DNA of 64,000 nucleotides from a bacterium (GTDB lineage: Bacteria; Pseudomonadota; Alphaproteobacteria; Sphingomonadales; Sphingomonadaceae): NCBI GenBank assembly GCA_030824575.1, contig JAVBXL010000220.1, positions 1 through 64,000 on the forward strand. Direction: 5' to 3'. The notes below the pieces were generated by a model. It did no database searches and was not told the DNA's origin. It saw only the letters and a program-made list of their open reading frames with translations. The first letter of the stretch is position 1. The number at the start of each line of letters is the position of its first letter. Both the position numbers and the translations under genes were made by a program. Shown one piece after another: positions 11,683 through 61,233 of the stretch.

Positions 11683-12657
11683 TCAAGCCGCCGCCCGCGC
11701 CGCCAGCCGGGCGTCGATCGCATCCCAAATCATGCCGCCGGTGTCGATCCCGTCAAATGCGTCGATCGACACGATGCCGGTGGGCGACGTCACGTTGATT
11801 TCGGTCAGCCATTCGCCGCCGATCACGTCGATGCCCACGAACAACAGCCCGCGGGCCTTCAACTCCGGCCCCATCGCGGCGCAGATTTCCCGCTCCTTGT
11901 CGGTGAGCAGCGTCTTCGCCGCCGATCCGCCCACCGCCAGGTTCGACCGGATTTCGCCCGCGCCCGGAATGCGATTGACCGCACCCGCCACCTCGCCATC
12001 GATCAGCACGATGCGCTTGTCGCCCTGCGCCACGCCGGGGATGAAGGCCTGGACCATGAACGGCTCCACCCAAGACGCCTTGAACAGTTCCACCAGCGAC
12101 GACAGATTGGCACCATTTTTGCCGACATGGAACACCGCCACGCCGCCATTGCCATACAGCGGCTTGACCACGATCTCGCCATGCTGCGCCAGGAACGACT
12201 TCACTTCGGTGAGGTCGCGGGTAATCATCGTGGGCGGCATGAAGCGCGCATAATCGAGCACGAACAATTTTTCCGGCGCGTTGCGGACGCTGCCGGGGTC
12301 GTTCACCACCAGCGTCTCTTCCTGCACCCGCTCCAGCAAATGGGTCGCGGTGATGTAGCTGAGGTCAAAGGGCGGGTCTTGCCGCATCCACACGACATCG
12401 ACGTCGCGGCCCAGGTCCAGCACCTCTTCCGGGCCAAAGGCGAAGTGATCGCCTTCGACCTTCTGGACATTGACCGGCCGCGCCTTCGCCAGCACCCGGC
12501 CGTCGCGAAATGTCAGGTCCGGCGCCAGATAATGATAGAGCCTGTGCCCCCGCGCCTGCGCCGCCAGCATGATGTGGAAGGTCGAATCGCCAGCAATCTT
12601 GATGCCCTCCATCGGGTCCATCTGCATGGCGACGGTCAGGGGGTTGAGTTCAGTCAT
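11683..12657 (-). CDS. gshB: Glutathione synthetase
   Basis: GshB joins gamma-glutamylcysteine and glycine with ATP, the last step of glutathione synthesis. The 324-residue product matches the prokaryotic ATP-grasp form: MDPMEGIKIAGDST near the N-terminus, RQDPPFDLSY, VVKPLYGNGG for the ATP-grasp loop, and EINVTSPTG near the C-terminus with metal-binding residues. The ATG at 12657 (MTELNPL) was chosen because the upstream in-frame extension crosses the repeat element. Confidence 0.95.
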   Translation of the reverse strand: MTELNPLTVAMQMDPMEGIKIAGDSTFHIMLAAQARGHRLYHYLAPDLTFRDGRVLAKARPVNVQKVEGDHFAFGPEEVLDLGRDVDVVWMRQDPPFDLSYITATHLLERVQEETLVVNDPGSVRNAPEKLFVLDYARFMPPTMITRDLTEVKSFLAQHGEIVVKPLYGNGGVAVFHVGKNGANLSSLVELFKASWVEPFMVQAFIPGVAQGDKRIVLIDGEVAGAVNRIPGAGEIRSNLAVGGSAAKTLLTDKEREICAAMGPELKARGLLFVGIDVIGGEWLTEINVTSPTGIVSIDAFDGIDTGGMIWDAIDARLAARAAA

Positions 12658-12679
12658 GCGCGCGGCTTCCTTCCATATC

Positions 12680-12793
12680 CGTTCGTGCTGAGTAGGGACT
12701 GAGCGAAGCCGAAGTCCCGTATCGAAGCACATTGCGGCACGCATCCTTCGATACGCCGCTTCGACTTCGCTCAGCGGCTACTCAGGACGAACG
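12680..12793. repeat. CTTCG-rich dispersed repeat, copy 2 (long palindrome)
   Basis: The outer arms CGTTCGTGCTGAGTAG and CTACTCAGGACGAACG pair with one mismatch. The inner arms CGTATCGAAG and CTTCGATACG pair perfectly. The whole forms a long imperfect cruciform between gshB and yraN. It belongs to the same family as the elements at 11591 and 35608. Confidence 0.75.
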
Positions 12794-12807
12794 GGGTGGT
12801 AAGACGC

Positions 12808-13176
12808 CTATCCCCCATGCCAGACATTGGCCAAATGGCGTGGCGCGCGGCCGGGCGCAAGGAGGATGACGTCGATTCGCATGTCGTCCCCCGGTTTCGC
12901 CAGTTCATGCCACAGGATTTCCGCCGCCTTGGCAACCCGCGCGAGCCGTCGCTCGTCGATCGCCAGGTCCAGTTCCCCCGCACTCCCCCGCGCCTTGACC
13001 TCGACAAAGGCCAACATCGCCCCCCGCCGCGCGACCAGGTCGACCTCTCCGGCAGGCGTCCGCATCCGCCGGCCGATAATCTGCCAGCCTTTCAGCCGCA
13101 GCCACCAGGCGGCGATGCGTTCGGCCTGCCGCCCGCGCTTCTCCGCCGCGAATCGTTCGACGGGAGGCCTCTTCAC
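12808..13176 (-). CDS. YraN family (UPF0102) nuclease-fold protein
   Basis: The 122-residue product has the UPF0102 features: GRQAERIAAWWLRLKG, GEVDLVARRG and FVEVKARG, which form the Glu-Asp-Glu-x-Lys core of an endonuclease-like (Holliday junction resolvase-like) fold. Its biochemical role is not established. It begins with GTG at 13176, overlapping the rsmI stop by four bases (GTGA). The rsmI-yraN order is common in proteobacteria, which supports the call. Confidence 0.92.
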   Translation of the reverse strand: MKRPPVERFAAEKRGRQAERIAAWWLRLKGWQIIGRRMRTPAGEVDLVARRGAMLAFVEVKARGSAGELDLAIDERRLARVAKAAEILWHELAKPGDDMRIDVILLAPGRAPRHLANVWHGG

Positions 13177-14015
13177 CCCTTCAATTCCGTAGCCCGATCA
13201 TACAGCGTGCGCCGGTCCAGCCCCAGCTTCTTGGCGACCTCCCCCGCCGCCTTGGACACCGACAGCCGGGTCAGGGCCTCGCGCAGCGCCGCATCGGCAT
13301 CCTCCGCGCTGGCGGGCGGCGCTTCACCCGGCGGCCCTACGGTCACCACGATCTCCCCCTTGGGTGGCGCATCGGCATAGCGGGCGGATAGTTCGGACAA
13401 TGTGCCGCAGGCGGTTTCCTCGAACGTCTTGCTGATTTCCCGGCTGACCGCCGCGTCGCGATCCCCCAGATGCGCCGCCATCGCTGACAGGCTTTCCGAC
13501 AATCGCGGCCCGCTTTCGTAAAAGACCAATGTGGCGCGCAGCCCCGCCACCTCGTCCAGCGTGTCGCCCCGCGCCTTCGCCTTGCTCGGCAGGAAGCCCA
13601 TGAACAGAAACCGGTCGGTCGGCAGCCCCGACAGCGTCAGCGCCGCGATCGCCGCGCTCGGCCCCGGCAGCGTCGTGATCGTCCGCCCCGCCGCCCGCGC
13701 ATCACGCACCAGTTTATAGCCCGGATCGGAAATCAACGGCGTCCCCGCATCCGACAGTAAAGCGACCGATTCGCCCGCCATTCGCTCGACCAGCCGATTG
13801 CGGACATGATCGGCGCTATGGTCATGATAGGGTACCATCGGCCTGTCGGACCCGGCATGGCGCAGCAATCGCGCGCTCACCCGTGTATCTTCCACGGCGA
13901 CCACATCAGCCAGCCGCAGGACTTCGGCCCCGCGCGGCGTAAGGTCACCAAGGTTGCCGATCGGCCCCGCGACGATATAAAGCCCAGGCTCAAGCCCAGA
14001 AGTTCGAGTTTCCAT
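13173..14015 (-). CDS. rsmI: 16S rRNA (cytidine(1402)-2'-O)-methyltransferase
   Basis: RsmI uses S-adenosylmethionine to 2'-O-methylate C1402 in the 16S rRNA decoding centre. The 280-residue product shows the tetrapyrrole-methylase-like fold motifs: GLYIVAGPIGNLGDLTPR, VAVEDTR, LLSDAGTPLISDPGY and LPGPSAAIAALTLSGL. The ATG at 14015 gives the normal start. The start region lies only 11 bases from the divergent lipoprotein gene, so promoter elements of each gene must overlap the coding part of the other. Confidence 0.95.
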   Translation of the reverse strand: METRTSGLEPGLYIVAGPIGNLGDLTPRGAEVLRLADVVAVEDTRVSARLLRHAGSDRPMVPYHDHSADHVRNRLVERMAGESVALLSDAGTPLISDPGYKLVRDARAAGRTITTLPGPSAAIAALTLSGLPTDRFLFMGFLPSKAKARGDTLDEVAGLRATLVFYESGPRLSESLSAMAAHLGDRDAAVSREISKTFEETACGTLSELSARYADAPPKGEIVVTVGPPGEAPPASAEDADAALREALTRLSVSKAAGEVAKKLGLDRRTLYDRATELKG

Positions 14016-14026
14016 AAGGACGCCAG

Positions 14027-15232
14027 ATGACAGAGACGGATGCCCCCCGGCAAGCAAATGTGTTCGCTGCGGTAAAGCGCGGCGCGCGTTGCGCCTTCAT
14101 GGGGGCGGCGCTGTTCCTGGCCGCCTGTCAATCGATCGTGCCAAAGGGGCCGGGGCCGGTCGCGCCCACCGGCCCGACCCGGCCGACCGGCCCGGAAGTC
14201 GTACAGGGCCTGCCGACCGACGCCGCCCGCCATCGCGTCGCGCTGCTGGTGCCGATGAGCGGTCCCAATGCCGGCGTCGGCCAATCGATCGCCAACGCCA
14301 CCACGCTGGCGCTGATGGACACAAAGACCGACCGGGTGCGCATCACCACCTATGACACCGCGCTCGGCGCGGCGGCGGCCGTGACGAAAGCGCTGGCCGA
14401 TGGCAACCGCCTGGTTCTTGGCCCGTTGCTGGCGGAGGACGCCCGCGTAATCGGGCCGATCGCAGCGCGCGCCAATGTGCCGGTCATCAGCTTTTCCAAC
14501 GACGCCAGCATCGCGGGCAGCGGCGTCTATGTGCTGGGCTACAACACCGCCCAGTCGATCGACCGCGTCGTCGATTTCGCCAAGAGCAAGGGCCTGTCCC
14601 GCTTTGGCGCGCTGGTGCCGCGCGGCACCTATGGCGAACGCGCGGGCAATGCGCTGCTGCGCGCGGTCGAGCAGGCCGGCGGCACCGTCGTCTCCATGCA
14701 GACGTTCGACCGGACCCCTGCTTCCATCACCGCGGCGGTCAAGAAATTGCAGGCCTCCTCCAGCTATGACGCGCTGCTGATCGCCGACAGCGGCCGGGTC
14801 GCGTTGCAGGTCGCGCCCATCGTGCGCAAAAATGGCGGCGCGACCGCGCGGCTGCTCGGCACGGAATTGTGGAATACGGAAGGCACGCTGGCCGCCAGCC
14901 CCGTCCTGCGCGGCGCCTGGTTCGCCAGCGTGTCCGACACGCTCTACCGCCAGCTCGCGACCAAATATCGCGCCCGCTACGGCACATCCCCCTTCCGCCT
15001 GTCCTCGCTCGGCTATGATTCGGTGCTGCTGACCGTGCGGATAGCGCAGGACTGGAAACCCGGATCGCCCTTCCCCGCCGCGCGCCTGCGTGACGCGGGC
15101 GGCTTCTCCGGCATCGACGGTGCCTTCCGCTTCAACCGCGCCGGCGTTGCCGAACGCGCGCTGGAAGTGAATGAGGTGGGAGTTGGCGCATCAAGCGTAG
15201 TGGACGCAGCGCCCAGAGGCTTCGGCGAATAA
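14027..15232 (+). CDS. LpoA-like penicillin-binding protein activator lipoprotein
   Basis: The 401-residue product has a lipobox FLAAC around residue 34 and a mature domain with a type 1 periplasmic-binding fold (RVALLVPMSGPNAGVGQSI, GPLLAEDARVIGPIAARANVPVISFSND). This matches the LppC/LpoA family; LpoA of enterobacteria activates PBP1A, but activity in alphaproteobacteria is not well shown. The adjacent rsmI and yraN genes are the usual partners of this family. The exact start is uncertain; the ATG at 14027 gives a slightly long signal region. Confidence 0.85.
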   Translation: MTETDAPRQANVFAAVKRGARCAFMGAALFLAACQSIVPKGPGPVAPTGPTRPTGPEVVQGLPTDAARHRVALLVPMSGPNAGVGQSIANATTLALMDTKTDRVRITTYDTALGAAAAVTKALADGNRLVLGPLLAEDARVIGPIAARANVPVISFSNDASIAGSGVYVLGYNTAQSIDRVVDFAKSKGLSRFGALVPRGTYGERAGNALLRAVEQAGGTVVSMQTFDRTPASITAAVKKLQASSSYDALLIADSGRVALQVAPIVRKNGGATARLLGTELWNTEGTLAASPVLRGAWFASVSDTLYRQLATKYRARYGTSPFRLSSLGYDSVLLTVRIAQDWKPGSPFPAARLRDAGGFSGIDGAFRFNRAGVAERALEVNEVGVGASSVVDAAPRGFGE

Positions 15233-49748: not shown

Positions 49749-51115
49749 GATTCCAATTCCTCTTTCGCCTGCGCTATCCGCGCCCTTACCTGCGACGGCG
49801 CCGTACCGCCATGGCTCTGGCGGCTGGCGACCGACGCATCGACCGTCAACACCGCATAGACCCGCTCGTCGATCCGCGCGTCGATGTCCCTGAGCGTCGC
49901 GATCGGCAACTGGTCGAGCGGCACCGCCGCAGCCTCCGCCGCCGCCACCGCGCGTCCGGTGATATGATGCGCCTCGCGGAACGGGATGCCCCCTTCCCGC
50001 ACCAGCCAATCGGCCAGGTCGGTTGCGGTCGCAAAGCCGCTCTCGGCCAGGCCGCGCATCCGGTCGGTGCGGAACGTCACCGTCTCGACCATCCCGGTCA
50101 TCGCCGCGATCGACAGCGCCAGCAGGTCGTGCGCCTCGAACACCGGCGGCTTGTCGTCCTGCATATCCTTGGAATAGGCGAGCGGCAGACCCTTCATCGT
50201 CACGCACAGCGCCGTCATGCAGCCCATGATCCGCCCGGCATGGCCGCGCACCAGTTCGGCCGCGTCGGGATTGCGCTTCTGCGGCATGATGGAGCTGCCG
50301 GTCGAATAGGCGTCGGGCAGCTTGACGAAGCCGAAGGGTTGGCTCGCCCAGATGATGAACTCCTCGGCCAGCCGCGACAGATGCAGCGACGCCTGCGTCG
50401 CCGCCATCAGATAATCGAGCGCGAAGTCGCGGTCGGACACGCTGTCCAGGCTATTGTCGGTCGGCTTGGCAAAGCCCAGCGCCGCCGCCGTCGCATGGCG
50501 ATCGGTCGGAAAGCCGGTCCCGGCCAGCGCCGCCGCGCCCAGCGGACATTCGTTCAGCCGCGCGCGCGCATCGGCAAATCGGCTGCGGTCGCGCCGCACC
50601 ATTTCATAATAGGCCATCAGATGATGCCCCAGCGTCACCGGCTGCGCCGACTGCAAATGGGTAAAGCCCGGCATCACCGCATCGGCATTCTCCTCCGCCC
50701 GCGCCACCAGCGCGCGTTGCAGCCCCAGCAGCCCCGCCTCGACCTCGTCGATCGCGTCGCGCACCCACAGGCGGAAATCGGTCGTCACCTGATCGTTGCG
50801 GCTACGCGCGGTGTGCAGCCGCCCTGCGACTGGCCCGATCAGCTCGGCGAGCCGCGACTCGGTGACCATATGGATGTCTTCCAGGTCCAGATTGACCGGC
50901 ACGCCATTGGCTTCATATTCCGCCGCGATCCGGTTCAACCCCTCGGTGATCGCCTGCGCATCCTCGCCCTCAACGATGCCTTGCTGGGCCAGCATCGCGA
51001 CATGCGCCTTGGACCCGGCGATGTCCTGCTTCCACAATCGCTTGTCGAAGGGGATGGAGGCATTTATCTCACGCATGATCGATGCCGGGCCGGCGGCGAA
51101 CCGGCCGCCCCACAT
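49745..51115 (-). CDS. argH: Argininosuccinate lyase
   Basis: ArgH splits argininosuccinate into arginine and fumarate. The 456-residue product starts [11 protein letters not shown], the usual start, and has the fumarase/lyase signature [16 protein letters not shown] around residue 277. TARSRNDQV and TAAALGF segments support it. It overlaps the small lipoprotein gene by four bases, giving the argH-lptM-like-lysA-siroheme operon. Its start is 19 bases from the divergent thioredoxin gene. Confidence 0.96.
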
Positions 51116-51134
51116 GCTGTTGGAGCCTGCTTCC

Positions 51135-51755
51135 GTGATATCGTCATTCCGCGCGCTAATGATACTGCTCCTGCCTGCCGCTCTGGCGGCTTGCGATAGG
51201 CAATCGCCGCCGAAGGAGCAAGCCAATGCCGCCCTCCCCGGCGAGGTTCCGGCGACGACGGGCGAAGCCACCGGTGGTGCCACGAAGAAGGATGGCGCCT
51301 TCGACTATCGGCTCGACCGCAGCAAGGCAGGTACGCCTGCCCCCGACTTCGCCTTCCAAGACCCGCAAGGCGGCGAAAAGACGTTGCAGGATTTCGCGGG
51401 CAAGCCACTGCTGGTCAATCTCTGGGCGACCTGGTGCGCGCCCTGCATCGCGGAAATGCCGACGCTGGACCGGATCGCGGCGACCTACGGTCCCAAGGGG
51501 CTGGCCGTCCTCACCATCTCGCAGGACAATCAGGGACTGAAAGCCGCCATGCCCTTCTTCGCCAAACATGACCTGCCCCACTTGAAGGGCTGGGCCGACC
51601 CGGAAAACCAGTTCGGCTTCCACTATGCCACCGGCCTGCTGCCCACCACCGTCATCTATGATGCACAGGGCAAGGAAATGGTGCGGGTGATCGGCGCGAT
51701 GGATTGGGAAGGGCCAGAGGCGAAGGCGTTGATCGACGCGGCCATGGCGGTCTGA
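51135..51755 (+). CDS. TlpA-like thioredoxin lipoprotein
   Basis: The 206-residue product has a lipobox LAAC near residue 20 and a thioredoxin domain with the active site WATWCAPC around residue 105. TlpA/ResA-like proteins act outside the cytoplasm, often in cytochrome c assembly or disulfide reduction. The GTG at 51135 follows a GGAG motif; an ATG at 51159 would also leave a signal peptide. It is divergent from argH with a very short spacer, the usual neighbour order in alphaproteobacteria. Confidence 0.9.
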
Positions 51756-51765
51756 CCGGCTGAAA

Positions 51766-51830
51766 GTCTGTCTCGAAATGCGCCTTTGGCGCATCCGCAC
51801 CGGCGCTCTTTCGCGCATTTCGAGATAGAA
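51766..51830. repeat. GTCTGTCTCG hairpin repeat, copy 1
   Basis: This element holds a 13-base inverted repeat (TCTCGAAATGCGC at 51771-51783 and GCGCATTTCGAGA at 51813-51825). Its left half matches the element at 62309-62353. It lies just after the thioredoxin gene and may stop transcription. Confidence 0.7.
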
Positions 51831-51868
51831 TCTGAATCGAAGCCTTAACGAAGCAGAGTCAAAAACCC

Positions 51869-51899
51869 GCCATGCCAGTTGATTGCAAAATGGCATGGC
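51869..51899. promoter_or_regulatory. Candidate operator upstream of the TonB receptor
   Basis: A perfect nine-base inverted repeat (GCCATGCCA, 13 bases, TGGCATGGC) lies about 180 bases before the receptor start. The surrounding 51831-52079 is unusually A/T-rich for this genome and holds a TACAAT hexamer at 52009-52014 that could be a -10 box. No gene is visible in this stretch. Confidence 0.4.
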
Positions 51900-52079
51900 A
51901 GTGATGCACAGTTGTCACTTGCCCGCCTACCGATCCCGATAATATTCTCAAACGCTTTTGTCATGGAAACAATTGAGAAATATTGCGTTTTAGTGCATTT
52001 TTTTGCGCTACAATAGAGGATTGCCACAGCCCGTCCGTCATCCCCCTTGTCATCATAAATGCAAAAACAGGGGGCATGA

Positions 52080-54716
52080 ATGACGCGACTGTCCGCGCTC
52101 AAACTTTCACTTATTCTCGCTTCGTCCTGGTCCGCCTGCGCCATCGCGCAGGATGCGCCGCAGGAACCACAGACCGATGAAGGCGCCGCCATCATCGTCA
52201 CCGGCACCCGCGCCGTCGGCATTTCAGCCGCCGAATCCGCCGCGCCGGTTCAGGTGTTGAGCGAAGAAGCCATCAGCCATGTCGGCCAGCCGAACCTCAA
52301 CCAGGTTCTGACGCAGATGGTGCCGGGCTTCACCGCCCAGACCCAGGGCACCGACCTGTCCAGCTTCTCGCTGTCGGCCCGCCTGCGCGGCCTCAGCCCC
52401 AACCACACGCTGATCCTGGTCAATGGCAAGCGCCGCCACGGCAACGCCATTCTTCAGGTCATCTCCGGCGCGTTCCAGGGGTCTGCCGCGCCCAGTATCG
52501 ACGTCATCCCCCCCGACGCCATTTCGCGCGTCGAAGTGTTGCAGGAAGGCGCGGCGGCCGTTTACGGCACAGACGCGATCGCAGGCGTCTTGAACTTCAT
52601 CCTCAAGGACCAGACCGACGGCGGCACGTTCAAGGTCACCGGCGGCCAATATTATGACAGCGAGGGCGAACTTTTCTCCGCCTCCGGCAATGTCGGCTTC
52701 AAACTGGGCGAGGACGGCTTCTTCAACCTGACCCTGTTCCATCGTCGTCAGGATTATACCACCGTCGGCAAGGGCCAGGTTCTGGTGACCAAGCAGGACG
52801 GCACGCTGCAGCCCAACGCCCCTGCCCAATGGTCGAACCTGACCGGCGACGCGCTGTCGGGCATCAACGGCGGCCAGCCCAAGACCAACCTCAACGTCGC
52901 CTTCTACAATATGGGCTATGATTTCGGCGGCGTCGAACTCTACAGCTTCGGCGACTATAGCCGCCGCGAAGGCTGGGCCAAGCAGGGCTACCGCCATCCC
53001 AAGCGCATCTGCTACGAAGCCGGCAACACGGGCGGCAACGTCACCTCGGCCGCCTATGATCCCAGCATCTGCTATGGCGACACCGGCGTCGTCGGCATGG
53101 TCCCGCTCCAGCATGTGATCGAAAACGAATATAGCTTCACCGTTGGTGTCAAAGGCGAATTTGGCGGCGGCTGGAACTATGACGTGTCCGGCACCTATGG
53201 GTCGCAAAAGGACGATATCTGGACCGAAGCGTCGGCCCATCGCGAAATCTGGCAGGAAAGCTACCAGAACCAGCTACGCGGCATCGGCGTCGCCAACACG
53301 CCGGACAGCGCCTATGATGGCGGTTTCAAGCTCGCCCAGACCACGCTGACCACCGATATCCGCAAGGAGTTTGACGTCGGCATGGCGACGCCGATCACTA
53401 TGGCGTTCGGTGGCGAATATCGCAAGGATGAGTATGAAATCATCGCCGGTGATTCCATCTCGACCTACAAGACCGGTGTCCAGTCCTTCCCCGGCTATAA
53501 GGCGAGCGACGCCGGCGAATTCCAGCGCAGTTCGAAGGCAGGCTACATCAATTTCATCGTCAAGCCGACCGATGCCTGGAGCGTCGATCTTGCGGGCCGT
53601 TACGAAGACTATACCGATTTCGGCGACACGCTGATCGGCAAGGTCACGACCCGCTACGACTTCTCCGACGCCTTCGCCATCCGCGGCACCGCCAGCACGG
53701 GCTTCCGTGCGCCGACGTTGCAGGAACAGAAATATTCGACCATCAACGTCGGCCCGACCAGCGCCGTCGCACAGCTTCCCGCCGGCTCGCCTGCCGCCGC
53801 GTTGCTGGGCTTCGATTCGCTGAAGCCTGAAAAGTCGAAGAATTTCTCGGCCGGTTTCGTGGTTCGTCCAACCAACAAGCTGACCGTCACCGTCGATGGC
53901 TATCTGATCAAGATCAAGGATCGGATCACCGGCACCGCGGCCCGCAACGCCGTCCTCAACGGCGTGGCGCAGCCGGGCGGCGCGGACATTCTGACCGCCC
54001 TCAACGCCGCGGGCATCGTCCTCGACAGCGCCCTGTTCACCAGCGGCACGATCGGCGTGCAAAGCTTCACCAACGCCGTCGATACCCGCACCTGGGGCAT
54101 CGACTTCTCGGCCAGCTATCCCGTCGCGCTGGACTTCGGCCAGCTCAACCTGTCGCTGACCGCCAACTATAACAAGACGAAAATCACCAACAACAAGCTG
54201 GGCTATCCGCTGTTCAACGCCGCATCGGAAAGCAATATCGAACGCGCCAGCCCGGACTATAAGGTCGTCGCCAACGCCCTGTTCAAAAGCGGCCGTTTCG
54301 CCGTCAACCTGCGCGAAACCTTCTACGGCAAGACCAGCGTCCTGGTGCGTCCGGCCTTCACCACGTCGGCCAATGGATCGATCGTAATCCCCGAAGGCGG
54401 TTTCCTGATCGCCGACGGCTCTCTGGTGAACGGGGTGAACGCCAACCAACTCTACTTCAACGGCGTGGCCAAGGCAGCGGCCATCACCGACCTGGAAGTG
54501 AATTACGACTTCACCGACAATGTCACCTTCTCGCTGGGCGCCAACAACCTGTTCAACAAGAAGCCGGAAATCCCCAAGCTTCTGAAGGGCGTGGTCGTGC
54601 CGACCGGCGTGTCGCCCTATGAAAACGGCTCCGGCTCCTACAGCGCCTCCTACGGCCACAGCGCCTACAGCACGTCGGGCGGCTATTATTACGCCCGCAT
54701 CGACTTCAAATTCTGA
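52080..54716 (+). CDS. TonB-dependent receptor of the amine oxidation cluster
   Basis: The 878-residue product has a signal peptide ending near CAIAQ, a plug domain (AAIIVTGTRAVGISAAESAAPVQVLSEE region, then LRGLSPNHTLILVNGKRRHG and RVEVLQEGAAAVYGTDAIAGVLNFI) and a barrel ending ARIDFKF. It should import a scarce or large solute across the outer membrane using TonB. The genes downstream encode exported nitrogen-metabolising enzymes, so an amino acid, peptide or amine-containing solute is the likely substrate. Substrate class is an inference. Confidence 0.9.
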   Translation: MTRLSALKLSLILASSWSACAIAQDAPQEPQTDEGAAIIVTGTRAVGISAAESAAPVQVLSEEAISHVGQPNLNQVLTQMVPGFTAQTQGTDLSSFSLSARLRGLSPNHTLILVNGKRRHGNAILQVISGAFQGSAAPSIDVIPPDAISRVEVLQEGAAAVYGTDAIAGVLNFILKDQTDGGTFKVTGGQYYDSEGELFSASGNVGFKLGEDGFFNLTLFHRRQDYTTVGKGQVLVTKQDGTLQPNAPAQWSNLTGDALSGINGGQPKTNLNVAFYNMGYDFGGVELYSFGDYSRREGWAKQGYRHPKRICYEAGNTGGNVTSAAYDPSICYGDTGVVGMVPLQHVIENEYSFTVGVKGEFGGGWNYDVSGTYGSQKDDIWTEASAHREIWQESYQNQLRGIGVANTPDSAYDGGFKLAQTTLTTDIRKEFDVGMATPITMAFGGEYRKDEYEIIAGDSISTYKTGVQSFPGYKASDAGEFQRSSKAGYINFIVKPTDAWSVDLAGRYEDYTDFGDTLIGKVTTRYDFSDAFAIRGTASTGFRAPTLQEQKYSTINVGPTSAVAQLPAGSPAAALLGFDSLKPEKSKNFSAGFVVRPTNKLTVTVDGYLIKIKDRITGTAARNAVLNGVAQPGGADILTALNAAGIVLDSALFTSGTIGVQSFTNAVDTRTWGIDFSASYPVALDFGQLNLSLTANYNKTKITNNKLGYPLFNAASESNIERASPDYKVVANALFKSGRFAVNLRETFYGKTSVLVRPAFTTSANGSIVIPEGGFLIADGSLVNGVNANQLYFNGVAKAAAITDLEVNYDFTDNVTFSLGANNLFNKKPEIPKLLKGVVVPTGVSPYENGSGSYSASYGHSAYSTSGGYYYARIDFKF

Positions 54717-54731
54717 TCGAAGTCACGAGGG

Positions 54732-54764
54732 AAGGGCCGGTCCGGCAAGGACCGGCCCTTTTTC
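54732..54764 (+). terminator. Intrinsic terminator after the TonB receptor gene
   Basis: AAGGGCCGGTCC and GGACCGGCCCTT pair perfectly around a five-base loop and are followed by T residues. It separates the receptor from the enzyme genes, so the enzymes either depend on read-through or have their own promoter in 54765-54792. Confidence 0.88.
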
Positions 54765-54792
54765 TTACCACTGTTCCTATGGGGAATTGTCC

Positions 54793-55275
54793 ATGACCGC
54801 GCGTTTCGCCTTCCTGCTGGCCGCCATGGCCGTACCTTCCGCCCAGGCCGCCACCGTCGAACATAAGCAGGCGCCCGGCGCCATGATCGCCAGCGCGGCG
54901 ATCATCCCGCCCGGCAGCACCCTCTATTATCTCTCCGGCGCGACCGGCGCACCGATCGACCCCAAGGATGTCGAAAGCCCCGACGCCTTCGGCGATACCG
55001 AGGCACAGACCCTGTCCATCTTCACCAAGATGAAGGCGCAGCTAGCCGAACTCGGCCTCACCATGGGCGACGTCGTGAAACTCACCGTCTTCCTGGTCGG
55101 CGATCCCAAGCTGGGCGGCAAGATGGACCGAGACGGCATGACCAAATCCTACAAGAAATTCTTCGGCACCGCCGACCAGCCCAACCTGCCGACCCGCTCC
55201 GCCTTCCAGATTGCGGGCCTGGCCCGGCCGCAGCAACTGGTCGAGATCGAGGCGATCGCCGCCAAGGCGCCCTAA
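54793..55275 (+). CDS. Exported RidA/YjgF family protein 1
   Basis: RidA proteins hydrolyse reactive enamine/imine intermediates to keto acids and ammonium. The 160-residue product has a Sec signal peptide (MTARFAFLLAAMAVPSAQAA) before the RidA domain. The domain keeps the catalytic Arg in PTRSAFQIAGLA and the Glu in VEIEAIAAKA. Export is unusual because well-studied RidA proteins are cytoplasmic. It precedes a flavin amine oxidase, a natural source of imines. Confidence 0.85.
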   Translation: MTARFAFLLAAMAVPSAQAATVEHKQAPGAMIASAAIIPPGSTLYYLSGATGAPIDPKDVESPDAFGDTEAQTLSIFTKMKAQLAELGLTMGDVVKLTVFLVGDPKLGGKMDRDGMTKSYKKFFGTADQPNLPTRSAFQIAGLARPQQLVEIEAIAAKAP

Positions 55276-55311
55276 GCGCCATTCAATGCGCGTTCCAATA
55301 GGGGGGATATC

Positions 55312-56898
55312 ATGACCGACAGCACTGCACCCAGCCGCCGCGACCTCCTGACCATGATCGGCAAGGTCGGTGGCGCGGCCGCCATGTATCAGGCGATGAC
55401 CGCGCTCGGCCACGCCGCCGAAACCCAGTTCACCGGCCCGCCCGTCCTGTCGGGCGCCAAGCCCGGTGCCTCGGTCGTCATCCTGGGCGCTGGCCTGGCC
55501 GGCATGGCCGCCGCCTATGAGCTGCAAAAGGCGGGCTATGCGGTCAAGATACTGGAATTTCAGGATCGCCCCGGCGGCCGCAACTATACGTTGCGCGGCG
55601 GAGATACCTTCACCGAAAGCGACGGCACGGTGCAGAAGGTGCAGTTCGCGGCGGGCAATTACCTCAACCCCGGCCCCTGGCGCATCCCGCACCACCATAA
55701 GGCGCTGCTCCATTATTGCCGCGAATTCGGCGTCGCGCTGGAACCCTTCATCCAGCTGAACCACAACGGCTTCATCCATTCGTCCGAAGCCTTCGGCGGC
55801 AAGCCGATGCGCTACAAGGAAGTCGCGACCGACTTCAAAGGGCACACGTCCGAACTGCTGGCCAAGGCGATCAGCTCCAAGGCGCTGGACGACAAGCTGT
55901 CGGCGCAAGATCAGGAAAAGCTGATGGAGGCGCTGCGCGGCTGGGGCGTGCTGGACAAGAATATGGCCTATACCAGCAGCCTCAAGGTGTCGGCCCAGCG
56001 CGGCTACGAACAGGCGCCCGGCGGCGGCTGCAACGGCGCGCCCACCCCGTCGCAGATCGCCAAATTGCAGGACGTGCTCGACCCGCAGGTCTGGACCGCC
56101 ATGTCCTTCTATTTCAGCTATGTGATGCAAACGACGATGTTCCAGCCGACAGGCGGCATGGACATGATCGGCAAGGCGTTCGCCAGGAAGATCGGCAAGA
56201 TCGTCACCTACAACGCTAAGGCCACGAAGGTCGCCCAATCGGATAAGGGCGTCACCGTCAGCTACAAGGATGTCGCGACCGGCCAGATGCACGATGTCAG
56301 CGCCGACTATTGCGTTTGCACCATCCCGCTCTCGATCATCAGCCAGGTCGATATGCAGGTGTCTCCGGCACTCAAAGCCGCGATGAAGGCGGTGCCGTAT
56401 GGCGGTCACGTCAAGATCGGCCTCGAATTCAAGCGCCGCTTCTGGGAGGAAGACGACAATATCTATGGCGGCCACAGCTTCACCGACCAGTCGATCACCC
56501 AGCTATCCTATCCCAATGACAAGATGTTCGGGCGCGGCCCCGCCGTCCTGCTGGGTGCCTTCGCCCGCGACCTCGCCGGCTTCCAGCTTGCGGGCATGAC
56601 GCCGCAACAACGCATCGAAACGGCCCTCACCCAGGGGGAAGTCTTCCACCCGCAATATCGCAAGGAGTATCTGAACGGCGTATCCGTGCCCTGGAGCCGG
56701 GTGCCCTGGATATTGGGCTGCACCTCCGCCTGGAGCGAGGACAATCGCAAGGCGCATTACAAAAATCTCGTCACGCTCGACAACCGCGTGGTGATGGCGG
56801 GCGAACATGCCAGCTACTATGGCGGCTGGATGGAAGGCTCCATCCTTTCGGGCATGGACGCGATCACCCAGATCCACCAACATGCGCAGGCGGCCTGA
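55312..56898 (+). CDS. Tat-exported flavin amine oxidase
   Basis: The 528-residue product has a twin-arginine signal (SRRDLL at residues 8-13), an FAD Rossmann fold (VVILGAGLAGMAAAYEL near residue 55), the RPGGR motif and the C-terminal GEHASYYGGWMEGSILSGMDA typical of monoamine and L-amino-acid oxidases. It should oxidise an amine or amino acid to an imine outside the cytoplasm. Electrons may go to oxygen or to the cytochrome encoded next; this is undetermined. Confidence 0.87.
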   Translation: MTDSTAPSRRDLLTMIGKVGGAAAMYQAMTALGHAAETQFTGPPVLSGAKPGASVVILGAGLAGMAAAYELQKAGYAVKILEFQDRPGGRNYTLRGGDTFTESDGTVQKVQFAAGNYLNPGPWRIPHHHKALLHYCREFGVALEPFIQLNHNGFIHSSEAFGGKPMRYKEVATDFKGHTSELLAKAISSKALDDKLSAQDQEKLMEALRGWGVLDKNMAYTSSLKVSAQRGYEQAPGGGCNGAPTPSQIAKLQDVLDPQVWTAMSFYFSYVMQTTMFQPTGGMDMIGKAFARKIGKIVTYNAKATKVAQSDKGVTVSYKDVATGQMHDVSADYCVCTIPLSIISQVDMQVSPALKAAMKAVPYGGHVKIGLEFKRRFWEEDDNIYGGHSFTDQSITQLSYPNDKMFGRGPAVLLGAFARDLAGFQLAGMTPQQRIETALTQGEVFHPQYRKEYLNGVSVPWSRVPWILGCTSAWSEDNRKAHYKNLVTLDNRVVMAGEHASYYGGWMEGSILSGMDAITQIHQHAQAA

Positions 56899-56899
56899 G

Positions 56900-57304
56900 A
56901 TGCGGCGCGGACTCCTGCGTCTCGCCGCGCTGGCCGTGCTCGCCGCCGCGCCCGCGCTGGCGGATTCCCCTGGCGGCCGCCCGGTCAAGCTGGCGCTGCC
57001 CGATGGCGAGCAGGTCTATAAGCAGGTCTGCGCCGCCTGCCACCTGGCGCAGGCGCAGGGGTCGCCCGACGGCACCGTCCCGGCGCTGGCCCATAATGCG
57101 AAACTGGCGACGGCGGACTATCCCATCACCGTCGTCATGAAGGGCCAGGGCGGCATGCCCTGGTTCTCCGAAATGCTCACCCCAGGTCAGGTCGCCGCCG
57201 TGGTCGGCTATGTCCGCACCCATTTCGACAATGATTATGCCGATCCGGTCGCCGAAGCGGATGTGAAGCGCATCGCCGCCGCTATCAAGGGCAGCGAAGA
57301 ATGA
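56900..57304 (+). CDS. Class I c-type cytochrome
   Basis: The 134-residue product has a signal peptide (cleavage near PALADS) and one haem-attachment motif CAACH (Cys44 to His48 from the ATG at 56900). A Met in GGMPWF near residue 89 is the likely second iron ligand. An alternative in-frame ATG at 56882 overlaps the oxidase end. It follows the oxidase by one base and overlaps the next gene by four, so it is a candidate electron acceptor for that oxidase. Confidence 0.88.
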   Translation: MRRGLLRLAALAVLAAAPALADSPGGRPVKLALPDGEQVYKQVCAACHLAQAQGSPDGTVPALAHNAKLATADYPITVVMKGQGGMPWFSEMLTPGQVAAVVGYVRTHFDNDYADPVAEADVKRIAAAIKGSEE

Positions 57305-58434
57305 CCGACACCGCCCTCTCCCGCCGAATGTTGATGCACGGCGCGATCGGCGTCGCCGCCGTCGCGGGCACCGCCGCCCCCGTCCTCGCCCAGCGCGGGC
57401 GCAAGGTAGACCTGCCCGACGATCCCGCCGCCATGGCCGCCACGCTGACCGACGCTGTCTATATCAACAGCAACGAACATCCGGTCGGCCCCTGCCCCGC
57501 CGCGCTCGCCGCACTGGCGAAGCTCCCGCCGCTCTCCGGCCGCTACGGCATGGCCTTTGCGGGCAAGCTTGAAAGCCTGTTCGCGCGCCAGAACGGCCTG
57601 TCCCCCGACCAGGTGCAGGTCCACCCCGGCTCCTTCATGCCGCTCCGCTCCGTGGCGCTCAGCTACTCCAGCGCCGACCGTCCGATCGCCTATTTCGAAC
57701 CGACCTTCGACCAGGGGTTTCTCGGCCTCGACAATGCCAGCATCACCCGATCGGTCGCGGTCCCGCTGTCGGGCGATTTCGCCGCCGACCCGCGCAAGCT
57801 GCTGGCCGCTGCGCCGGACGCCGGCGTCTATTACCTCTGCAATCCCAACAACCCGACCGGCCTCACCACCGCACGCGCCGACATCGACTGGCTGCTGGCG
57901 AACAAGCCCAAGGGCAGCATCCTGCTGGTGGACGAAGCCTATATCCATTTCAGCGACGCACAAAGCTGCCTCGATCTGGTCGCCCAAGGCGCTGACCTGC
58001 TGGTCACCCGCACCTTCTCGAAAATCTACGGCCTTGCCGGCCTGCGCTGCGGCCTGATCGCCGGGCGCAAGGATTTGCTCGACGGCATGGCCCGCTACGG
58101 CACCAACATCACGCCGATGCCAGCCGTGCTGGCGGCGGAAGCAAGCCTGCTCGACCCTACCCTGCTCCCGGCCCGCAAGGCGGAAAATAAGGCGGTGCGC
58201 GACGATCTGTTTGCCTGGCTCGATGCCAGGGGGCTGCGCTACCTGCCCAGCCAGGCCAGCTTCGCGATGATCCATGTCGGCCGCCCAGGTGCCGCCGTCA
58301 CCGCCGCGCTGGCGCAGGCGGGCGTCTTCATCGGCGGCCCGCGCAAACATATGGACGACTGGGTCCGCGTCTCCTTTGGCAGCCCGGCCGAAATGCAGGC
58401 GTTCAAGGCGGCCTTCCTCAAGGTCATGGCATGA
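57301..58434 (+). CDS. Exported class I/II aminotransferase (HisC-like)
   Basis: The 377-residue product has a Tat-type signal (LSRRMLMHGAIGVAAVAG) and a fold type I PLP domain: CNPNNPTGLTTARAD and the PLP Lys in TFSKIYGLAGLRCG (around residue 242). It resembles histidinol-phosphate aminotransferases, but no histidine genes are near and the protein appears exported. A periplasmic PLP enzyme is rare. It overlaps the cytochrome gene by four bases. Confidence 0.85.
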   Translation: MTDTALSRRMLMHGAIGVAAVAGTAAPVLAQRGRKVDLPDDPAAMAATLTDAVYINSNEHPVGPCPAALAALAKLPPLSGRYGMAFAGKLESLFARQNGLSPDQVQVHPGSFMPLRSVALSYSSADRPIAYFEPTFDQGFLGLDNASITRSVAVPLSGDFAADPRKLLAAAPDAGVYYLCNPNNPTGLTTARADIDWLLANKPKGSILLVDEAYIHFSDAQSCLDLVAQGADLLVTRTFSKIYGLAGLRCGLIAGRKDLLDGMARYGTNITPMPAVLAAEASLLDPTLLPARKAENKAVRDDLFAWLDARGLRYLPSQASFAMIHVGRPGAAVTAALAQAGVFIGGPRKHMDDWVRVSFGSPAEMQAFKAAFLKVMA

Positions 58435-59690
58435 CCCTCAGCCGCCGTCAGGCGTTGGGCGCGGCGATCGCCGTCCCGCTGGCGGCGCAGGCGGCCCGCG
58501 CCAGCGCAGCGTCGCCCATCCTACCGGACAAATCCAGCTTCGCGCCCACCCCCATCGCCTATCTCGACAGCGCCTCGACCCACCCGATCAGCCTGGGCGC
58601 GCGCGCCGCGATGGACGCCTATGTCGCCGCCCGCACGCTCGATCCCGCCGCTGCTGCCCGAAAGCCCGTGGACCGCGCCGCCACCATCGCCAAATTCGCC
58701 CGGCTGGTGAACGCGGACCCGGACGAACTCTGCTGGGTCCAATCCACCACCATGGGCGAACAGGCGGTGCTGCGCGCGCTGGGCTTTCCGCACGATAAAG
58801 GCCGCATCGTCACCGACACGCTGCATTTCTACGCTGGCTTCCCCATGTATCAGGAATTGGCCAAACAGGGCGTCGATGTCGCCTGGGTCCAGGCGCGCGA
58901 CGGCCGCATCGACATGGACGACATGGCCAAAGCCATCACCCCCGGCACGAATTTGGTCAGCCTGTCGCTCGTCTCCACCTATAATGGCTTCCACCACGAC
59001 CTGAAGGCGGTGTGCGACCTGGCCCATGCCGCAGGCGCGCTGGTCTATGCCGACATCATTCATGCCGCGGGCGCAATTCCTGTCGATCTCCACGCCAGCA
59101 GCGTCGATTTCGCCGCCTGCGCCACCTATAAATGGCTGATGGGCGATTTTGGCCTCGGTTTCCTCTATGCCCGGCGCGGCGTATTGGATGCCTCGCCGCT
59201 CGCCGATTTCGGCTATTATGGCTTCGCCGCGCCGGGCGCCCCGTCCGGCATCAGCCTGTCGCCGCCGCAAACCCATGTCTATCCGATGGACCCACCGGGC
59301 AGTGAACCCACCAGCTACGCCATCCGTCCCGGCGCGCTCGGCCATTTCGGCACCGGCACCTATGCGCAGGCGGTGGTCGCGGCGATCGACCATGGACTCG
59401 ATCATATCGCCGTGCTCACCGTCCCCGCGATCCAGGCCCATGCCCAAAGCCTGATCGCCCCGCTGCGCGAGGGCCTCACCGCCAAGGGCTACCGCCTCAT
59501 CACCCCGCCCGGCACAACTACGCCGCTGCTGACCGCCCTGCTGCCCGATGCGAAGACCCGCCTCGCCGACGCACTGGCCAAGGCGCAGGTGCGCATTTCC
59601 CTGCACGACCATCATTTTCGCATCGCGCCGTCGATCTTCAACGATAGGACGGACATAGACCGCCTGCTGGCCGCCCTGCCCCGCGCCTGA
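58431..59690 (+). CDS. Exported class V aminotransferase-like PLP enzyme
   Basis: The 419-residue product has a twin-arginine signal (LSRRQALGAAIAVPLAAQA) and a class V PLP fold: STTMGEQAVLRAL, VSTYNGFHHDL, DIIHAAGAIPVDL and the PLP Lys in CATYKWLMGDFGLGF (around residue 235). This group includes cysteine desulfurases and isopenicillin N epimerase. The class cannot be narrowed from sequence alone. It overlaps the preceding aminotransferase gene by four bases. Confidence 0.83.
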   Translation: MTLSRRQALGAAIAVPLAAQAARASAASPILPDKSSFAPTPIAYLDSASTHPISLGARAAMDAYVAARTLDPAAAARKPVDRAATIAKFARLVNADPDELCWVQSTTMGEQAVLRALGFPHDKGRIVTDTLHFYAGFPMYQELAKQGVDVAWVQARDGRIDMDDMAKAITPGTNLVSLSLVSTYNGFHHDLKAVCDLAHAAGALVYADIIHAAGAIPVDLHASSVDFAACATYKWLMGDFGLGFLYARRGVLDASPLADFGYYGFAAPGAPSGISLSPPQTHVYPMDPPGSEPTSYAIRPGALGHFGTGTYAQAVVAAIDHGLDHIAVLTVPAIQAHAQSLIAPLREGLTAKGYRLITPPGTTTPLLTALLPDAKTRLADALAKAQVRISLHDHHFRIAPSIFNDRTDIDRLLAALPRA

Positions 59691-59708
59691 TTTTTTTGGG
59701 AGATACTC

Positions 59709-60155
59709 ATGAAGCATCTGATCGCCACCGCCCTGCTGCTCGCCGCCACCCCCGCTCCCCTTCAAACCGCTCTGGCCCAACCCGCCGCCGCGCCGCAGGC
59801 CCTGCCCGCCAAGCTCCCCTTCTCGCCCTCGATCCGGGTCGGCGACATCCTCTTCATGTCCGGCCAGATCGGCCAGGCACCCGAAGGCATGGACAAGCAT
59901 AAGGAAGGCTTCGATGCCGCGGTAAAAAGCGCGATGGACTCGATCGGCAAGATATTGGCGACCAAAGGCCTCGACTTCGGCCACGTCGTCAAATGCACCG
60001 TGATGCTGGACGACATGGCCGACTGGCCCCGCTTCAACGCCGCCTACCTCCCCTATTTCGAAGGCAAACGCCTCCCCACCCGCAGCGCCTTCGGTGCGGA
60101 CGGGCTGGCGCTGGGCGCGCCGCTGGAAGTAGAATGCATAGCCGCGTTCAAATGA
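59709..60155 (+). CDS. Exported RidA/YjgF family protein 2
   Basis: The 148-residue product has a signal peptide (MKHLIATALLLAATPAPLQ, cleavage near ALAQ) and a RidA domain with FMSGQIGQAPEG, VVKCTVMLDDMADWPRFNAAY, the catalytic Arg in PTRSAFGADGL and Glu in LEVECIAAF. It is closer to classic RidA than the first copy. It ends the cluster, 18 bases after the class V enzyme, and a composite repeat follows it. Confidence 0.87.
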   Translation: MKHLIATALLLAATPAPLQTALAQPAAAPQALPAKLPFSPSIRVGDILFMSGQIGQAPEGMDKHKEGFDAAVKSAMDSIGKILATKGLDFGHVVKCTVMLDDMADWPRFNAAYLPYFEGKRLPTRSAFGADGLALGAPLEVECIAAFK

Positions 60156-60179
60156 AAGCGGCAGGAATAGGCTGACTTG

Positions 60180-60351
60180 GGTGGATTACTGCCATTCCGC
60201 TTTGCGCGAGACTTCACGCGAAAGGCGACGTAAAAATCCCGTCACCCCAGCGGAGGCTGGGGTCTCAGGCGACGATGTAATGCGGTTGAGTAGTGCCCAG
60301 CCGAACCGCCGCGCGCCTCCGCACAAGACCCCAGCCTTCGCTGGGGTGACG
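60180..60351. repeat. Composite palindromic repeat, copy 2
   Basis: The flank (60180-60240) is the near-exact reverse complement of 9449-9510. The core (60241-60351), bounded by GTCACCCCAGC hairpin units, matches 9337-9448 in the same orientation. The flank and core are therefore in opposite relative arrangement in the two copies. The stretch 60352-60424 shows no gene. Confidence 0.88.
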
Positions 60352-60424
60352 GTAATAGGGCATCAGCTTGCCGGTTATACAACCCGCCTGCTGAACGTCC
60401 GCTTCTGCTCAACACCCGCCGCCT

Positions 60425-60622
60425 TCAGATCGCCACAGCTTCCCGCACCACCAGCACCGGCACGCCATCACGCACGGGAAAGGCCAGCCCCGCCGCCTCC
60501 GAAACAAGCGCACCACGCGCCGCGTCCCAGCTTAGCGGCGTCCGCGTCACTGGACATACCAGCTTCTCCAGCAACCACGGATCGATCGGCGCAACCTCGC
60601 CACTCGTTGCCCCGCCATTCAC
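60425..60622 (-). CDS. Trm112 family protein
   Basis: The 65-residue product contains [16 protein letters not shown] and the C-terminal [17 protein letters not shown] pattern of Trm112/YcaR proteins. Trm112 activates methyltransferases in eukaryotes and archaea; the bacterial role is unclear. The GTG at 60622 overlaps the preceding Lon-N gene stop by four bases. Only one of the usual zinc-type cysteines remains. Confidence 0.88.
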
Positions 60623-61233
60623 TGCATCGTCGCCCCGCCATCGCGCTCGATCCGGCCGACAATCTGCATCAACTGGATGATCCGCTCACATCGTTCGGAC
60701 AGCGTATCGGCCTCCAGCAAAGTCTGCTTGGCCGCCGGGTCGAACGGCACGATCTGGGCAATGCCGTTGACCAGCGCGGTATCGTCCAGCTGCGACACCG
60801 CGGTCCAGTCCACCACATAACCCAAGGAATCCGCAAAGCGCCGCGATTCCTGCTCCAACGCCGCGCGTTCGACCATGTGCAGCACCTCATCCTCCTGCGG
60901 CGCTTGCTCGACATCGGCCTCGATCTGGCGAAATTGCGTCGGCACCTGCAATTCGCGCACCAGCCGAAACCGCGCCAGGCCGGTCAGCACGATATTGAAC
61001 CGCCCGTCGTCCAGCGCCTCGATCTGGCTGACATGGCCCAGGCAGCCCATATCGAACAGCGGCGGCACCGCCCCCGCCCCGCGCGGCTGGATCATGCCGA
61101 TCCGCCGGTCGCGCGCCATCGCATCATGGATCAGCGCGCGGTATCGCGGCTCGAAAATATGCAGCGGCAGGTCCATCCCCGGCAGCAGCAGCGCGCCGGG
61201 CAAGGGAAAGATGGAGACGCGCGCGCGGTTCAT
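60619..61233 (-). CDS. Lon N-terminal substrate-binding domain protein
   Basis: The 204-residue product consists of a LON substrate-binding domain without ATPase or protease parts: [25 protein letters not shown] near the start and IGMIQPRG, then a helical C-terminus. Such stand-alone domains are common next to YbbN-like and Trm112 genes in alphaproteobacteria. The ATG at 61233 is preferred over upstream codons. A role in protein quality control is an inference from fold and neighbours. Confidence 0.9.

Follow-up and report, generated by a model that had tools for sequence, protein, structure and literature searches.

A candidate modular locus for periplasmic amino-acid deamination in Sphingobium

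The first 64,000 nucleotides of contig JAVBXL010000220.1 from a member of the Sphingomonadaceae (GenBank assembly GCA_030824575.1, forward strand; hereafter the window) carry, between positions 52080 and 60155, the gene of a TonB-dependent receptor followed by genes for two RidA proteins, a flavoenzyme, a cytochrome c and two pyridoxal phosphate (PLP) enzymes. In related loci, the RidA1-oxidase-cytochrome block, the gene of the HisC-like PLP enzyme and that of the class-V PLP enzyme are separately optional, while the receptor and usually RidA2 are constant. As judged from sequence, this is proposed to be a modular locus for the periplasmic deamination of amino acids, or of the amino-acid parts of peptides or conjugates, with a probability of about 0.55.

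Gene order and variation at a chromosomal slot

The window belongs to a contig of 101 kb; the genome, assembled in 223 contigs, measures 4.94 Mb. The nearest named relatives of the locus are those of Sphingobium species, and the genus label is taken from such matches. All seven genes are on the forward strand. The outer-membrane receptor (878 residues, positions 52080–54716, Pfam PF00593 and PF07715) is followed by RidA1, the exported-type Rid-family protein of the oxidase block (54793–55275, PF01042 at 49.6 bits for a cut-off of 27.3), a flavin amine oxidoreductase of the putative twin-arginine translocation (Tat) type that is probably an L-amino-acid dehydrogenase (55312–56898, PF01593 at 179 bits), and an exported-type c-type cytochrome with a CAACH haem motif, the probable electron acceptor of the oxidase (about 56900–57304, PF13442). 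Then come a Tat-type HisC-like (PtaA-like) class I/II aminotransferase (57301–58434, PF00155 at 110 bits), a Tat-type class-V PLP enzyme that lacks the cysteine of desulfurases (58431–59690, PF00266 at 105 bits), and RidA2, an exported-type Rid-family protein resembling imine deaminases and the most constant companion of the receptor (59709–60155, PF01042 at 82 bits). The five genes from the oxidase to RidA2 are separated by 1 base, a 4-base overlap, another 4-base overlap and 18 bases. All seven proteins belong to the expected families with scores above the Pfam gathering scores. Open frames, Pfam matches and measured spacings thus agree with an earlier note on this DNA as to the seven genes, their families and the tight packing of the last five. 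The ratio of nonsynonymous to synonymous substitution rates (dN/dS) ranges from 0.05 to 0.41 over 49 pairwise values (seven genes in seven loci), indicating purifying selection on all seven genes.

A sample of 94 genomes of the genus was searched. The receptor was matched in 68 (E ≤ 1e-150), the class-V gene in 31 (E ≤ 1e-20), 30 of these with at least 71% identity, and the oxidase in 29 (E ≤ 1e-60). The slot set consists of 60 loci from 59 genomes, G232 contributing two. Architectures were scored in 61 loci at a threshold of at least 45% identity, which diverged genes may escape; L202 and L203 were set aside, and L203 was restored. Seven of the 68 receptor genomes were unread at the slot (G253, G256, G257, G259, G267, G270 and G273), G205 yielded none (L202), and for G076 only the oxidase locus (L039) was read. 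Loci L157–L159, with class-V matches of 36–49%, were excluded as they are not slot loci.

All seven genes are present in 11 of the 60 loci, and the order receptor-HisC-class V-RidA2 is found in 13. Receptor and RidA2 stand without any of the three enzymes in 18 (17 plus L203), and the receptor is alone in nine. Receptor-class V-RidA2 occurs four times. The remaining architectures were each encountered once: receptor-RidA1-oxidase-cytochrome-class V-RidA2 (L135), receptor-RidA1-oxidase-cytochrome-HisC-RidA2 (L186), receptor-HisC-RidA2 (L187), receptor-class V at a contig end (L190), and class V-RidA2 apart from the receptor (L156). RidA2 therefore accompanies the enzymes in 32 of the 33 enzyme-bearing loci, the contig-end locus L190 being the sole exception, and the oxidase block is found in 13 of the 60.

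As 58 of the 60 loci have argH next to them, and 59 (all but L156) have either argH or the trx/lon genes located downstream, the loci occupy one chromosomal slot. On the argH tree of 54 loci, the fewest changes required are 5 for RidA2, 7 for the oxidase, 10 for the HisC-like gene and 11 for the class-V gene, counts that are soft because 24 of the 49 inner branches are open. The gene set and order described in the earlier note are thus found elsewhere, complete in the 11 slot loci and in L204, titled Sphingobium psychrophilum. The idea of one fixed joint pathway is abandoned, since the three modules (oxidase block, HisC-like gene and class-V gene) vary separately in presence.

Two loci differ in the receptor itself. 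At L131 (positions 11796–14363) it has diverged to 68% identity while the six adjoining genes are 93–96% identical, and at L203 (2326–4956) its identity is 42% next to a RidA2 at 81%. On these identities, both are instances of receptor swapping at a fixed slot.

It may be asked whether the slot is a mere insertion hot spot, where RidA2 would protect the periplasm in a general way and the enzymes, sharing no substrate, would each have arrived on their own. Separate gains and losses on the argH tree are what such a hot spot would give, together with the 18 enzyme-free RidA2 loci and with RidA-like proteins of exported type in other members of the family, of which 1 of 21 has a receptor within 1.5-kb flanks. 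It accounts poorly for the tight, overlapping packing, the constant gene order, the export-type character of all the products, their common tie to amino-group chemistry, and the presence of RidA2 in nearly every enzyme-bearing locus. This explanation is considered unlikely. A scheme with the exported RidA and the TonB receptor as constant core of a Sphingobium device for taking off amino groups in the periplasm, into and out of which three makers of imines or oxo acids (the flavin dehydrogenase with its cytochrome, the class I/II transaminase and a class-V enzyme of a new exported subfamily) would be plugged at the slot, is put forward tentatively, as a possibility that is less likely than not.

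Export-type N-termini and predicted chemistry

The N-termini of orthologues from the slot loci were examined for an RRx[hydrophobic] motif and for an uncharged run of 11 or more residues. The motif is present in all oxidases (13/13), HisC-like proteins (26/26) and class-V proteins (31/31), whereas RidA1 has it in 1 of 13, the cytochrome in 5 of 13 and RidA2 in 6 of 50; for comparison, it occurs in 145 of the 555 called open reading frames in 29 slot loci, the operon genes included. The uncharged run is found in RidA1 (13/13), the cytochrome (13/13), the HisC-like protein (26/26), the class-V protein (31/31) and RidA2 (50/50). Both features are combined in all 26 HisC-like orthologues. None of the 13 oxidase orthologues has the run, though all have the motif; a Tat signal is predicted for the oxidase from this motif, from the cytochrome next to it and from published relatives. 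All seven products have export-type N-termini, as the earlier note had stated for the six that follow the receptor; in these six, motif or run is kept across the slot orthologues, with the motif alone in the oxidase.

The best solved relative of the oxidase, at 283 bits (the next scoring 142), is the L-amino acid oxidase 2jae, the enzyme of Rhodococcus opacus. Arg124 of the oxidase aligns with the arginine of the RIP motif of 2jae, which presumably binds the substrate carboxylate, and all 44 aligned homologues have it. The gene of the CAACH cytochrome begins 1 base downstream, and a hydrophobic N-terminus is found in 13 of 13 cytochrome orthologues. A study of such enzymes reports that a Tat signal together with an operon-encoded cytochrome c predicts cytochrome-using dehydrogenases well (PMC12224317). 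On the homology to L-amino-acid oxidase and this rule, the flavoenzyme is probably an L-amino-acid dehydrogenase with the cytochrome c as its acceptor.

The HisC-like protein scores 424.7 bits with NCBIfam PRK09105 (cut-off 444). Its membership of the PtaA family was considered and rejected, as NF051461 gives 327.5 bits for a cut-off of 500. There are four HisC-like matches at E ≤ 1e-30 in the genome of the window, that of the window included. At L109 (9374–11651) in the same genome, two HisC-like aminotransferases stand in tandem, and a twin-arginine motif is clear in the second.

The class-V protein was rejected as a PvdN (NF051467, 24.3 bits, cut-off 650). Its structural model has a predicted local distance difference test (pLDDT) score of 81.9 and matches class-V PLP enzymes (cysteine desulfurases, kynureninase) in Foldseek with a template-modelling score (TM) of about 0.7. 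Lys234, Asp208, His132 and Arg397 are invariant in 23 of 23 sequences, and are presumed to be the PLP lysine, the PLP aspartate, the stacking histidine and the carboxylate-binding arginine, respectively. In the desulfurases SufS and IscS, the catalytic cysteine stands about 15 residues before the carboxylate-binding arginine. No cysteine is found within the 15 residues preceding Arg397 in any of the 23 sequences; one has a cysteine at −17 and eight at −28. The assignment as a cysteine desulfurase was rejected: the best sequence and fold matches are desulfurases, but the nucleophilic cysteine is missing.

Both RidA proteins pass the PF01042 gathering score and miss the TIGR00004 cut-off of 106.25, with 46.6 bits for RidA1 and 84.1 for RidA2. 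An arginine of RidA2 aligns with one of 5hp7, and an arginine of RidA1 was recognised by eye; both are assumed to be the catalytic arginine. A report on Rid proteins states that RidA hydrolyses imines from L-amino-acid oxidase in vitro, and that Rid genes cluster with flavin adenine dinucleotide (FAD) amine oxidases and cysteine desulfurases; neither "periplasm" nor "signal peptide" occurs in its main text (PMC4433059). From other genera of the family, 21 RidA2-like loci (L285–L305) were fetched with 1.5-kb flanks, some of them cut. An apparent Sec signal peptide was recognised by eye in 13 of the 21. A receptor match was found in one (L303, 31%) and an S10 match in one (L285). Exported RidA thus seems common in the other genera, as far as N-termini tell. 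A family-wide pairing of receptor and RidA was rejected on the one receptor among these 21 loci.

A scheme can be drawn from these assignments. The receptor would carry the compound across the outer membrane. The Tat-type flavoenzyme would oxidise an α-amino group to an imine and pass the electrons to the adjacent cytochrome c. The HisC-like enzyme would transaminate α-amino acids in the manner of PtaA, and the class-V enzyme, which is not expected to act as a desulfurase, would act on an α-amino acid and release an enamine or imine, or an oxo product. From the known biochemistry of RidA, the two RidA proteins would turn imines into oxo acids and ammonia by hydrolysis and would also shield the exported PLP enzymes. 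The gene patterns show that the enzymes are plug-ins, either alternative or additive, to the receptor and RidA2, and not obligatory successive steps. The joint action of the enzymes in the periplasm on an imported solute, as first imagined, is consistent with the imine and RidA chemistry of the families and with the export-type N-termini; its arrangement as a fixed pathway does not stand.

Expression, distribution and substrate

A terminator-like hairpin with a T tail lies between the receptor and RidA1 (54729–54768, forward strand), as found by folding of the gap 54717–54792 and by stem search. The 76-base gap has a folding energy of −35.2 kcal/mol (z −3.70), and none of 200 shuffled sequences is as stable. 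A perfect stem of 10 or more pairs and a T-rich tail follow the receptor in 32 of 58 loci versus 9 of 2440 random 110-base windows; as the search demands perfect stems, complementarity is obtained by construction and only the frequency relative to random windows counts. Near-perfect versions were seen by eye in 13 loci without a perfect stem. The hairpin keeps the same place though the genes that come next differ. It was not listed by a consensus terminator scan. The enzymes are probably expressed by read-through, at a level below that of the receptor. The receptor is followed by six genes, as had been noted, but it is not simply the first gene of their operon.

The receptor has a conserved leader (52018–52082, forward strand) with a C-rich stretch and a Shine-Dalgarno-like ACAGGGGGCA, which was delineated with upstream 8-mers and an alignment of 42 sequences. 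Octamers such as CAGGGGGC occur in 53 of 58 receptor upstream regions, and the leader also holds TGTCAT and ACAGGGGGCATGAATG. It may be a small-RNA target or form pairs that cover the ribosome-binding site. A leader hairpin over the Shine-Dalgarno sequence was rejected: the sequence is conserved, but none of four consensus pairs has changes on both sides. No riboswitch or known RNA was found with Rfam at gathering score in positions 51000–61000.

Distribution was examined in 199 genomes of the family and 398 of the phylum. The oxidase occurs at 54 places in 35 of the 199 family genomes. Of these places, one is in the window, 45 lie in the 40 loci that were fetched and read, and eight were unread (G001, G011, G023, G036, G120, G150, G186 and G197). 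A cytochrome match is near the oxidase in 26 of the 40 loci; matches to the HisC-like protein, the class-V protein or RidA2 were found in none of the 40. The class-V protein is present in 16 of the 199 family genomes at E ≤ 1e-20, that of the window included.

The best 80 of 269 class-V loci were considered: 19 have at least 70% identity, and 61 lie outside these, of which 56 span at least 12 kb. Relatives with 46–56% identity among these best 80 come from Novosphingobium, Sphingomonas, Nitrospirillum, Hyphomonas, Henriciella, Asticcacaulis, Duganella, Roseateles, Dyella and others. The 56 loci, all outside Sphingobium, contain an S10 carboxypeptidase-like gene (54), an amino-acid permease (43), a class I/II aminotransferase (39), Lrp (38), a TonB receptor (37), a member of the ornithine cyclodeaminase family (37), an amidohydrolase (35), an M61 peptidase (30) and RidA (20). 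The queries for these neighbours were picked from the class-V loci themselves, and the receptor count, obtained with two query receptors, may be low; families were assigned with Pfam on chosen neighbours only, in two scans of 10. Neither the oxidase nor this HisC-like gene was found at any of the 56 loci. In a control of 39 oxidase loci of at least 12 kb, S10, permease, ornithine cyclodeaminase, amidohydrolase and M61 matches were all absent, with Lrp in 1, receptor in 22 and RidA in 21. In 11 HisC-like loci taken as a second control, a receptor was matched in 3, Lrp, ornithine cyclodeaminase and class V in 1 each, and S10 in none. The S10, receptor, permease and Lrp neighbourhood of the class-V relatives is the best clue to the substrate, pointing to peptides or amino acids. 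Over L223–L283, a cluster of class-V PLP enzyme, TonB receptor, S10, M61, Lrp, ornithine cyclodeaminase and amino-acid permease recurs in several proteobacterial groups.

The substrate could also be a siderophore-like or peptide natural product that is tailored or dismantled in the periplasm after import, as PtaA and PvdN act on the glutamate of pyoverdine. Among models, the HisC-like gene comes nearest to PRK09105 and PtaA, exported PLP enzymes of both the PtaA and PvdN fold classes stand by one receptor, and about the first 210 residues of that receptor resemble siderophore and colicin I receptors in a search of the PDB. The low PvdN and PtaA model scores given above speak against this interpretation, and the peptidase and permease context of the class-V relatives fits catabolism better; it is regarded as improbable.

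Several observations weigh against periplasmic deamination by a concerted set of enzymes. The strongest against a tight pathway is that receptor and RidA2 are often without the enzymes: with 18 such loci and nine with the receptor alone, neither receptor nor RidA2 strictly depends on them. Among the 18 receptor-RidA2 genomes, no class-V match was found anywhere, and a close oxidase is present elsewhere in five. The RidA1-oxidase-cytochrome block is found outside the slot in six genomes (L196–L201), in one case with RidA2, and no close relative of the window receptor lies within the 11–14 kb read there. Exported-type RidA-like proteins occur elsewhere in the family with no adjoining receptor. 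The hairpin weakens the case for a single transcript with the receptor. The full set was seen in Sphingobium only, and the class-V gene is sparsely distributed (3 of the 398 phylum genomes at E ≤ 1e-50, that of the window included). Finally, transaminases in the periplasm require an amino acceptor in that compartment.

If periplasmic deamination is correct, a set of interchangeable enzymes, all exported, would free amino-acid nitrogen outside the cytoplasm. The cell could import the carbon as oxo acids and feed the electrons straight into the periplasmic cytochrome pool. The control of imine damage by RidA would extend to the periplasm, and the class-V subfamily would join the known exported PLP enzymes. 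The natural presence or absence of each enzyme at one slot makes the roles of the parts directly testable.

Relation to known systems

The lao-cccA-ridA cluster of Gluconacetobacter diazotrophicus unites a Tat oxidase, a cytochrome c and RidA (PMC5053998), to which correspond the L-amino-acid-oxidase-like, putatively Tat-exported flavoenzyme, the adjacent cytochrome c and the RidA of the window. In contrast to the window, the available text on that cluster mentions no HisC-like or class-V PLP enzyme and no TonB receptor, and the cluster is linked to auxin: it was found through mutants that lose auxin formation from tryptophan (PMC5053998). The window locus could likewise convert amino acids to oxo acids for release, as in the conversion of tryptophan to indole-3-pyruvate for auxin, and not for nutrition. 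The oxidase block does have the gene types of lao-cccA-ridA. Such a role, which leaves the PLP enzymes and the receptor unexplained and would concern the 13 of 60 slot loci that have the block, is judged improbable.

The cytochrome-c-using flavoprotein amine dehydrogenases of the NicA2/Pnao/CycN type are Tat flavoenzymes with an adjacent exported cytochrome c (PMC12224317), an arrangement resembled by the window flavoenzyme, with its candidate Tat signal, and its cytochrome. They were gathered with a nicotine oxidoreductase query, whereas the window enzyme is closest to L-amino-acid oxidase. The ong cluster for oxidised chitin of Pseudoalteromonas likewise combines a TonB receptor, a PLP deaminase and a RidA-family protein, but its deaminase is of fold type III and predicted to be cytoplasmic, and the substrate is a sugar acid (PMC9537276).

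PtaA and PvdN are Tat-exported periplasmic PLP enzymes of pyoverdine maturation (PMC6206403), and the exported-type aminotransferase-like and class-V-like pair of the window resembles them. The window proteins differ in falling below both NCBIfam cut-offs, and RidA and the oxidase are additional. With these precedents, part of the earlier claim of novelty falls, namely that no described pathway with exported PLP enzymes and exported RidA was known to it: exported PLP enzymes are known, and it is their combination with exported RidA at a receptor locus for which no description was found in the open-licence PMC literature. About half of the gene set matches known systems, and the interchangeable assembly around the receptor and an exported RidA seems to be new.

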